Below, piece by piece: positions 8,243-59,625 of a stretch of 64,000 bases of DNA. Every line of letters starts with the position of its first letter. The first letter of the stretch is position 1. The notes beneath the pieces were generated by a model. The model was not told where the DNA came from. It ran no database searches and was given only the letters and a program-made list of their open reading frames with translations. Both the position numbers and the translations under genes were made by a program. Source of the stretch: Methanolacinia petrolearia DSM 11571 (GTDB lineage Archaea > Halobacteriota > Methanomicrobia > Methanomicrobiales > Methanomicrobiaceae); the NCBI RefSeq assembly GCF_000147875.1, contig NC_014507.1, forward strand, positions 682,001 through 746,000, read 5' to 3'.

Positions 8243-10594
8243 TTAATTACCGTTATTGAAGCGGTACTTTCCCTCCGGCACAGAGATCTCAAATCTTGCA
8301 CCTTCTTCGAATTGTCCGGTTTCCCTGATTTTAAGTCCTGTCATCGCAAGAATTCCTTTTGACAGAAACAGCCCGAGTCCTGAATTTTTATAATATTCTC
8401 TCTTGAAGATCTTCTCCTTTGCATCATCCGGAATTCCGATTCCGTCGTCTTCGCATGTAATTAAAAGTCCGTTTTTAGTCTCTTCCGCATCGAATGTAAT
8501 ATGAGAGATTTTTTCACCATGCACCGATGCATTGTCAAAGAGCGTATATATGACCTTTCCAAAAAGGGGATCTGCGAGCACCTCAACCCTTTTTACATTG
8601 TTTTTGAGTTTTATGTGCTCAAAGGCGTTATTTCTGTAGGTTTCTGCAACAATCCTGCCGATATTGAACCAGTCCGGTCTCTGCTCTCCGAGATTTTTGT
8701 AATATGCGGTAAATTGGATCTGCTGCTTTATGGTTTCGATTATTCCCGAGACCTTCTCAAGATATTTATCAGCGGTTGTACCCGGAGGGATTGCTTTATC
8801 AAGTTCCATTAACTCCAGATACCCGGCTGCAGCTGTGATCTGGTTCAGGATATCGTGGCGTGTAATGTTTGATAAAAGATTGAGTTTTTTATTGACCTCT
8901 TCCAAAGATTTTTCTGCAAGATGCCTCTCCGTGATATCGTTTATGAGAGCCAGAACTCCTGTAAATTTTCCTTTTGAATCGATAAGTGGTGATGTTGCAA
9001 TAATCGTATAGATCTTCCTGCCGTCACTGCGTACAAACTCAAAATCATATTTTTTTATCTCTCCCTTCCTGTCGTTTTTGAATAGCAGCTTTGCTTTTTC
9101 GAGGCCTTCTTCATCCATGAAATTAAAAAATGAGCTTCCTACCACCTCTTCTACAGTATAACCAAGCATTTTTGCCATGCTTGGATTGACGAATGTCGCT
9201 ATACCGGCTGAGTCCACGGTCCAGATCCCTTCTCCTGCAAGTTCAACGAGTGTGCGGTATTTTTTTTCGCTTTCTTTTAGCGCCTCCTCCGCATTTTTAC
9301 GATCCGTTATATCATGCGACAATCCGAGTATTGCATATACCTTCCCTGTTTTATCCTTTAACGGTATAAGGGAATGGTCCTGCCAAAGATAGTTTTCATT
9401 ATATCTTGTTTTTGTCTCGATGAGAAGCGGCTCCCCTGTTTCTGCCACCATACGCAGGCTGTTTATCTGACTTTCTGCAATATCGGTTGTGAAGAGGTCC
9501 TTTCTTGATCTCCCGATGATTTTCTCAGGGGTGGTGTTCAGAAGCCCTGCAGCTCTTTTGTTTGCATATAGAACAGTATCTTCAAGATCAACGATGAAGA
9601 TCGGATCAAGGGATGCTTCGGCAAGTATCCGGTATTTTTCCTCACTCTCCTTTAGGGCCGTCTCGATTTTTTTGCGATCTGTTATATCTCGTGCAATCGA
9701 ACAGGAATATTCCTCGCCATTATAGGTGAGGTGATACTGGCTGATTTCAACAGGGTGAAGACTTCCGTCTTCAAACCTGTGAAGAGATTCGAATTTATAA
9801 AAGTCATCTTTTACAATTATTTTCCAGATCTCTTCCCACCTTTCAGGATCTATATCAGGATTGATGCCGAATACTGTTTTTCCATCTGTATTATTCTCTT
9901 TATTTATCCCGAATGATTCCCTGGCGCTTATGTTGGCATAAACTACCGCACCTTTCCTGTTGGTAAAATAGATGTCATCCGGGGAATGTTCGAATGCGAA
10001 TTGTGTTCTTTGGAACATTTCTGCAGATTTAATCCTGCTCAGATCGGTTATTGTTGCGATATATCCTGTTATATTGCCTTTTTCATCCTTCTCTGGACCT
10101 GCCTGGAATAGGACCCATGCGTTTGTCCCGTCGGGTTTCATGAACCTGTATTCGTGGTTTATCCTTGTGCCGTTCTGCGTGCAGGCGGACCAGTCGCCAA
10201 AAAATTTCTCTTTATCCCCTGTATAAATAAGTCCGCAGACTTCTTCACCCAACACCTGTTCTTTTGTGATCCCTGTTATCTCGGTAAATCTCCTGTTGGC
10301 ATATGAACAGATTCCTTCTGTATTCGTTCTGATGATCCCTGCAGGGGATATTTCAGAGAGTGTTTTAAAAAAGATCCTGCTTCTCTCAAGTTTATCGGAA
10401 AGCCAGGCGATCACAGCTGCAGCGAAGATGAATATTACTACCCGTTCAAAAGCCAGGAGTACCTGTTCAATGTCGGGCCACAGGAAGTAAATGACCATTG
10501 ACACATACATCAGACCGAGGAGAGCGGAAAGGAATATGCCTTTTTTCCTGTAATGATATGCAATCAGGACTATCGGGATATAATACAGGTGCAT
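8243..10594 (-). CDS. Membrane-linked PAS-domain sensor histidine kinase
   Basis: 783 residues as read. Two hydrophobic segments at the N-terminus are followed by four PAS domains, starting near SRIFFKTLSEISPAG, FAFEHSPDDIYFT, RILAEASLDPIFIV and RTLVELAGEGIWTV. Then come the H-box LSNITRHDILNQ with the phospho-acceptor His, and an ATPase domain with DDGIGIP and the short G-box SGLGLFLSKGIL. No receiver domain or response regulator is nearby, so partner and ligand are unknown. The ATG at 10594 lies inside a conserved-looking transmembrane region; see the upstream extension. Confidence 0.88.
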   Translation of the reverse strand: MHLYYIPIVLIAYHYRKKGIFLSALLGLMYVSMVIYFLWPDIEQVLLAFERVVIFIFAAAVIAWLSDKLERSRIFFKTLSEISPAGIIRTNTEGICSYANRRFTEITGITKEQVLGEEVCGLIYTGDKEKFFGDWSACTQNGTRINHEYRFMKPDGTNAWVLFQAGPEKDEKGNITGYIATITDLSRIKSAEMFQRTQFAFEHSPDDIYFTNRKGAVVYANISARESFGINKENNTDGKTVFGINPDIDPERWEEIWKIIVKDDFYKFESLHRFEDGSLHPVEISQYHLTYNGEEYSCSIARDITDRKKIETALKESEEKYRILAEASLDPIFIVDLEDTVLYANKRAAGLLNTTPEKIIGRSRKDLFTTDIAESQINSLRMVAETGEPLLIETKTRYNENYLWQDHSLIPLKDKTGKVYAILGLSHDITDRKNAEEALKESEKKYRTLVELAGEGIWTVDSAGIATFVNPSMAKMLGYTVEEVVGSSFFNFMDEEGLEKAKLLFKNDRKGEIKKYDFEFVRSDGRKIYTIIATSPLIDSKGKFTGVLALINDITERHLAEKSLEEVNKKLNLLSNITRHDILNQITAAAGYLELMELDKAIPPGTTADKYLEKVSGIIETIKQQIQFTAYYKNLGEQRPDWFNIGRIVAETYRNNAFEHIKLKNNVKRVEVLADPLFGKVIYTLFDNASVHGEKISHITFDAEETKNGLLITCEDDGIGIPDDAKEKIFKREYYKNSGLGLFLSKGILAMTGLKIRETGQFEEGARFEISVPEGKYRFNNGN

Positions 10595-10796
10595 AAAAAC
10601 CGTCGTAATCCCGTTTGCCAGGCAAAAAAATGAAAATGCCAGTGAATATCCTGAGATGAGGAGAATAATCAGAACCCATAATCTTTCGCCGGGTGTGGAG
10701 AGCGCTTTTATGAAATGCCTTTTGCCTTGTTTTATCTCCTGTGTCGTATAAAGCCCCCTTTAATTGATTCTGTTCACTCCTTCGTGATACTGGCAT
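10595..10796 (-). pseudogene. Frameshifted N-terminal extension of the PAS kinase
   Basis: Reading upstream of 10594 in the kinase frame gives 55 more codons without a stop. They include LYTTQEIKQGKRHF and a clear membrane helix (LWVLIILLISGYSLAF), but no ATG, GTG or TTG. A different frame starts with ATG at 10796 (MPVSRRSEQNQLKG) and would join the kinase frame if the run of five G at 10754-10758 (C on the + strand) were four. The remaining bases, 10797-11012, are AT-rich and show no gene. Confidence 0.55.
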
Positions 10797-11012
10797 CCCG
10801 GAATCCTGTGCATCAATATTAAAAATTGTGGAATCTTTTTTCGGCTGGGCTGTCAGTATGTTTTTTGAATGGTATGATGAGATATAAATTTATTTATTTT
10901 GAAATTTTCAACTCATGAAAAAAATAGTTTTGATCTTTGTTTTAAATTTAAAGCCGTAATGAAGCTTTGTTCCCAATTGTCAGCTATGATTGTGAACTCA
11001 GGCGGACGGGCT

Positions 11013-12299: not shown

Positions 12300-12343
12300 A
12301 TCAGATAATTCCTGCTCCATCGGGAAAAAAGTTTGCAAAAAAA

Positions 12344-12554
12344 GTTCATGAAATAAAGGTTTTATTTAAATCACAACGTGATTTTCATAGCAAACCTTCA
12401 TGACGGGCGATTTCATCACACAAAGCCGATAAAAATCTACAAAATTTATTGTAACCAGGACAGGAGATCTAAAGGTTCTCAATTTGGATTTTCGAACAAT
12501 ACGTTCATGAAACAAAGGTTTCATGCACTGTTTCATGAAATCACAACGTGATTT
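12344..12554. repeat. Duplicated palindromic element upstream of hps-rraA
   Basis: AAATCACAACGTGATTT (7-base arms, 3-base centre) occurs twice without a change, at 12368-12384 and 12538-12554. Each is preceded by a GTTCATGAAA-Y-AAAGGTTT block (12344 and 12503). TTCATGAA itself is a palindrome and occurs again at 12532-12539. The elements lie between the nitroreductase stop and the hps-rraA start, both on the minus strand, in a 275-base gap with no gene. They look like regulator binding sites or paired hairpins. Confidence 0.7.
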
Positions 12555-12574
12555 GCATGCAAATTCAAAAGAGG

Positions 12575-58157: not shown

Positions 58158-59625
<1,468 letters not shown>

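Follow-up and report, generated by a model that had tools for sequence, protein, structure and literature searches.

ACG starts occur in eukaryotes and in plastids, and the plastid ones are often edited from C to U into AUG; what these genes share with the locus considered here is ACG as a start. Among the systems described in the literature available to us, the closest proven cases are bacterial genes. Non-standard starts have been reported for infC, which begins with ATT in E. coli and with ATC in Streptomyces, and for sigR, which begins with GTC (PMC5472188, in part). Both resemble the kinase gene described below in being functional genes that begin with a codon other than ATG, GTG or TTG and were misannotated for that reason, and in that a weak start can be regulatory. 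However, infC and sigR are bacterial cases that depend on IF3 and have been proven by mutation, whereas the kinase is archaeal (aIF1), likely starts at ACG and is recognised purely by comparison.

In Archaea, genes that look broken yet are functional are known from recoding, with -1 frameshifting in an alpha-L-fucosidase and read-through at Sec and Pyl as examples (PMC8211752, in part). According to the excerpted text of the same review, non-canonical events of archaeal translation have been demonstrated solely in elongation and termination, while the kinase case would concern initiation. For initiation, the corresponding part of another review names AUG, GUG and UUG as starts (PMC7531240), and we found no report of natural AUA, ACG or other non-canonical archaeal starts in the open-licence literature, as far as its texts were accessible.

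Our analysis was based on a window of 64,000 nucleotides (positions 682,001 to 746,000 of contig NC_014507.1) from the genome of Methanolacinia petrolearia DSM 11571, which consists of one contig of 2,843,290 bases. The features considered are collected in Table 1. Read from its first standard start, the kinase ORF encodes 783 amino acids, begins MHLYYIP and matches PAS_9 (2.2e-52) and HATPase_c (4.1e-12) in Pfam, which identifies it as a sensor histidine kinase. Upstream of ATG 10594, the kinase frame stays open for 55 codons without a single ATG, GTG or TTG, and this open stretch encodes a hydrophobic helix with a Kyte-Doolittle mean of up to 2.38. ATG 10796 starts a separate frame, and deleting one base of the C5/G5 run at 10754-10758 would fuse this frame with that of the kinase. 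The initial annotation had pointed out the transmembrane helix that lacks a start codon, the ATG in another frame and the effect of the deletion, all of which agree with the frames, hydropathy and AlphaFold2.

Table 1. Features of the kinase locus, in window coordinates.
Feature	Position	Strand	Basis
Sensor histidine kinase ORF from first standard start (rest of membrane domain, four PAS stretches, HATPase_c)	8243-10594	-	Pfam
Coding extension without ATG/GTG/TTG, proposed true N-terminus	10595-10747	-	Synonymous bias for 10595-10711; homology to L031-L034 N-termini
First transmembrane helix, missing if the start is ATG 10594	10616-10693	-	AlphaFold2, hydropathy, same helix in homologues
ACG, likeliest start codon	10745-10747	-	16S 3'-end duplex; identical in sister species; ACG starts supported in two other genes
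AAAGGGGG, proposed Shine-Dalgarno, includes G5 run	10754-10761	-	16S 3'-end pairing
ATA, second candidate start codon	10709-10711	-	Conserved; weaker duplex; N-terminal length nearest homologues
In-frame TAA stop bounding the open stretch	10760-10762	-	Sequence
Short in-frame upstream ORF, 17 codons and stop	10760-10813	-	Read from both species' sequences
Frame of ATG 10796, 109 aa, start not conserved, probably no gene	10467-10796	-	ORFs, sister comparison
TTTATATC, possible TATA-like box, spotted by eye	10881-10888	-	Identical in sister species

Evidence that the open stretch is coding comes from a sister species (G001, a separate assembly), in which the kinase orthologue has 92% protein identity. 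Over the 39 codons from 10711 to 10595, seven changed codons are synonymous and two non-synonymous, as compared with two synonymous versus seven non-synonymous and one versus eight in the other two frames. When the same substitution types were placed randomly in this stretch, a mean of 6.2 non-synonymous changes was obtained (P = 0.00125). The entire kinase differs by 88 synonymous and 60 non-synonymous changed codons and is thus under constraint. As a control, 42 window genes with a counterpart in the sister species were examined, kept from 127 frames of which 119 gave a match; the kinase shows eight synonymous changes ahead of its first standard start, as compared with at most one in each of the other 41. 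A further 320 kb yielded one gene out of 215 with a flag that the kinase carries as well (at least three upstream synonymous changes, not fewer than the non-synonymous ones); frames that had no match, showed no synonymous bias or overlapped a longer frame were excluded from both surveys. The flagged gene, at 2565040 of G000 (minus strand; 30 upstream codons, four synonymous and no non-synonymous changes), was set aside, since its Ser/Pro-rich reading makes an antisense frame probable. Judged from the two species, the stretch upstream of ATG 10594 codes, with conserved coding sequence upstream of every in-frame ATG, GTG or TTG, and the sister sequence has no frameshift that would join it to another frame. 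It should be noted that codons 10759-10712 show three non-synonymous changes and one synonymous change, and that substitutions do not support coding upstream of ATA 10711; this pattern would be explained by a tail that evolves fast as well as by initiation at ATA 10711.

The homologues point in the same direction. Our comparison considered 34 distinct rows, namely the window, its orthologue and 32 others, after duplicates and matches beginning after query residue 60 had been dropped. In 30 of the 32, an ATG, GTG or TTG lies upstream of the helix region (the other two are cut by the locus edge), and none begins at the MHLYYIP methionine without the helix. The earlier proposal of the upstream helix as part of the protein is borne out by these homologues as well as by the synonymous bias. 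In the sister species, no standard start codon is found upstream of the helix; the sole such codon, a TTG at 10672, falls within it. Among the named relatives, the four nearest (L031-L034; three Methanoregula and one Euryarchaeota MAG) read TERMW, TETLW, TETAW and TEGMW at the place where the window reads GERLW, and the 39 residues before M10594 align to each of them above all 2000 shuffles. Without the last six residues, 0, 0, 18 and 0 of 2000 shuffles reach the score.

AlphaFold2, run on five sequences, predicted four helices in the membrane part, with a pLDDT of about 83-85 for the upstream helix; in the model (mean pLDDT 78.4) this helix covers residues 7-32. DUF4118, the KdpD-type membrane domain, matches weakly in three of five members, and the window protein has no match to it at E 0.1 or 1. 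A search of the membrane domain against solved folds returned nothing at E <= 0.001, the best match, to a PAS domain, being at 0.49. The membrane PAS histidine kinases of methanogens (DUF4118/KdpD-like) have the same layout of a four-helix membrane domain followed by PAS and HATPase, and the window kinase, which itself lacks a DUF4118 match, would differ from them by its start codon alone.

From these data we consider the kinase, with somewhat better than even confidence, to be an intact four-helix membrane sensor with a near-cognate start, most likely ACG 10747 placed by the Shine-Dalgarno AAAGGGGG. The ribosome would be positioned by AAAGGGGG and would initiate at this ACG, so that the N-terminus would read (M)TQEIKQGKRHFIKALSTPGERLWVLIILL..., provided that the initiator tRNA decodes ACG. 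The G5 run would then be part of the ribosome-binding site, neither a slippery nor a phase-variable tract, and the weak start may hold the amount of the sensor kinase low.

Which near-cognate codon is used had to be inferred from the candidates that precede the conserved W in both species, namely AGG 10759, ACG 10747, ATA 10735, AGG 10720 and ATA 10711. The duplex with the 3' end of 16S rRNA is -9.1 kcal/mol for ACG 10747 in both species, compared with -3.5/-4.6 for ATA 10711, -3.7 for ATG 10594 and medians for first standard starts of about -3.9 (40 genes) and -3.2 (215 genes). AAAGGGGG ends 6 nt upstream of ACG 10747, which places this codon at ribosome-binding distance, and the codon is identical in the sister species. 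The anti-Shine-Dalgarno GGCTGGATCACCTCCT occurs twice in the genome; the 3' end of one of the two 16S rRNA genes lies in the window at 59610-59625 (plus strand). Against ACG 10747 counts that 23 residues would precede the conserved W, as compared with 12-15 in the four closest homologues, although these lengths rest on starts that we chose ourselves. aIF1 has also been reported to disfavour non-standard starts (PMC6237735, in part), which counts against any near-cognate start here. ACG is enriched behind Shine-Dalgarnos (4 of 17 at <= -7, as compared with 6.9% of 2375 upstream codons), but this was not used as evidence because two of the strong ACGs adjoin in one gene beside its TTG. Taken together, ACG 10747 has about an even chance of being the start codon.

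The same kind of start may be found in other genes of the lineage. Three leads, an MMPL exporter, a CitMHS transporter and an Amt ammonium transporter, emerged from those survey genes that have synonymous changes or strong Shine-Dalgarnos upstream. The MMPL gene, at 2761252 of G000 (minus strand; L127:2351-2353), reads GGAGGT-TTTTTT-ACG. It has matches in 27 of 28 genomes, and 16 orthologue loci (L129-L144) were examined. The putative start codon is ACG in G000 and G001 and ATA in G022; ATT stands at the start place behind GGAG-like sequences in G018, G019 and G020. Several genera thus have ACG, ATA or ATT here, and two species of another genus (G023, G024) have ATG at exactly the codon of the ACG. 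Six of the 16 loci (L129, L130, L137, L139, L141, L142) have no in-frame standard codon between the stop and the conserved part, eight have one at or upstream of the start place, and L140 and L144 have one only three codons after it.

For the CitMHS transporter (identified by Pfam), at 2821236 of G000 (plus strand; L128:337-339), 94 of 120 genomes of the order match, and 35 loci were examined (20 of the family, L189-L208, and 15 more of the order, from L213-L233). Between the stop (or codon -12) and codon +5, 19 of the 35 contain no ATG, GTG or TTG, and each of these 19 carries an ACG at -4 to +2. Among the 16 loci with a standard codon, eight also have the ACG, and the other eight have an ATG nearby and no ACG there. 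When the 20 family loci were aligned, the start column held 15 ACG and two ACA, as compared with a mix of ACC, ACG, ACA and ACT in other Thr-rich columns, and three of the five non-ACG rows (L196, L198, L200) have an ACG a few codons away, by indel. At least three families of the order keep the ACG, and elsewhere ATG takes its position; an orthologue's ATG falls at the place of the start codon exactly for MMPL and within a few codons for CitMHS. No Shine-Dalgarno precedes the CitMHS start in G000 (-0.8). As the loci of each gene share ancestry, these counts should not be considered independent events. In the Amt gene, at 2551199 of G000 (plus strand; L112:11199), a very strong Shine-Dalgarno (-16.3) precedes a CTG, and four of the six orthologues examined beyond G000 have an ATG as the next codon, at which G000 and G001 read ACA. 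A possible ATC start was also noticed in GGGGGTG-CGTAG-ATC, which precedes a signal-peptide-like stretch at G000:C1:2741598 (plus strand, upstream of 2741619), in a gene that by its look encodes a secreted repeat-type protein. Because of the CitMHS and MMPL patterns, natural near-cognate starts in Methanomicrobiales appear well supported by comparison.

Turning to the leader of the kinase, it is present in two of 28 family genomes, the five other weak DNA matches covering only 21-37 bases. The comparison of start codons at the kinase locus therefore covers these two species only, neither of which has ATG at the proposed start. A structured leader or riboswitch was rejected, as the Rfam search gave no match at gathering level (the one weak match, to ssnA, scored 15.9 bits against a required 37.3) and the leader fold is no better than shuffles (z 0.93). 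The conserved 17-codon ORF ends with its TAA immediately ahead of the G run and could have a role in reinitiation, and TTTATATC may be a TATA-like box. Further along the window, at 12332-12558, two imperfect direct-repeat pairs of 34 nt (79%) and 28 nt (86%), spaced by 159-170 bases, sit between the ORF that ends at 12338 and the next gene.

Several other explanations should be considered for the kinase. The initial annotation had favoured a one-base shift in the G run, by phase variation, programmed frameshifting, a recent mutation or an assembly error, since removal of a single base would join ATG 10796 to the kinase. The leader of the sister species, however, has the identical G5 run and no indel from the run to the kinase, and the codon matching ATG 10796 is ACG; the single-base length difference between the two leaders sits further upstream than the run. 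The layout of an ATG plus a shift is thus not conserved, and this sequence does not fit a recent mutation, an assembly error or a conserved programmed shift that starts from ATG 10796. The finished genome, described for Methanoplanus (now Methanolacinia) petrolearius SEBR 4847, combines 67.9x pyrosequence with 52.2x Illumina (PMC3035365, in part), and such mixed 454/Illumina coverage argues against a homopolymer error. Between the two species compared, neither a difference in run length nor a conserved two-frame layout was found, and we rejected a shift in the run as very improbable; the 109-aa frame is probably not a gene. A near-cognate start, a possibility absent from the initial annotation, accounts for the kinase without any shift. 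Read-through of the TAA from the in-frame upstream ORF deserves as little credence: its ATG 10813 is conserved in both species, as is the in-frame stop, but the two codons of the short ORF that differ both changed non-synonymously, and no Shine-Dalgarno precedes the ATG (duplex +2.6).

More weight, though still little, can be given to ATG 10594 as the true start, with the upstream helix a recent relic of a lost start codon. This ATG is the sole standard start near the domain, and the first helix would be dispensable. Such a start would, however, leave the purifying pattern upstream of it in both species unexplained, cut the conserved motif GITTVFMHLYYIP common to the homologues and lack a strong Shine-Dalgarno. 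Among the near-cognate codons themselves, ATA 10711, guided by AAAGG 6 nt upstream and giving (M)KALSTPGERLW..., is a less likely but serious candidate: the synonymous bias begins about here, the N-terminal length fits the homologues best, the codon is conserved in both species, and the MMPL orthologue of G022 also suggests an ATA start. The Shine-Dalgarno of ATA 10711 is weak, though close to the standard-start median. Editing of the mRNA from C to U, by which ACG would become AUG before translation, would agree with ACG and ATG alternating in the CitMHS and MMPL genes at identical or neighbouring positions. Plastid ACG starts are often edited in this way, but ATA and ATT at the start of MMPL orthologues cannot be mended by C-to-U and argue against editing here, and we know of no C-to-U editing of archaeal mRNA; this explanation, too, is highly improbable.

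Seen across the genomes compared, the lineage-wide pattern is more interesting than the kinase alone. We regard it as fairly probable that near-cognate starts, mainly ACG, are a trait that Methanomicrobiales conserve in certain membrane proteins (CitMHS, MMPL and the kinase), probably for low or regulated levels; archaeal initiation would then make natural use of codons other than ATG, GTG and TTG. As gene callers assume ATG, GTG and TTG, N-terminal helices of such proteins are lost from databases. If true, order-wide natural use of an ACG (or ATA) start would represent, to the extent that the accessible open-licence literature shows, an undescribed form of archaeal near-cognate initiation, and these genes would offer native test genes for start-codon choice by aIF1 and aIF2.
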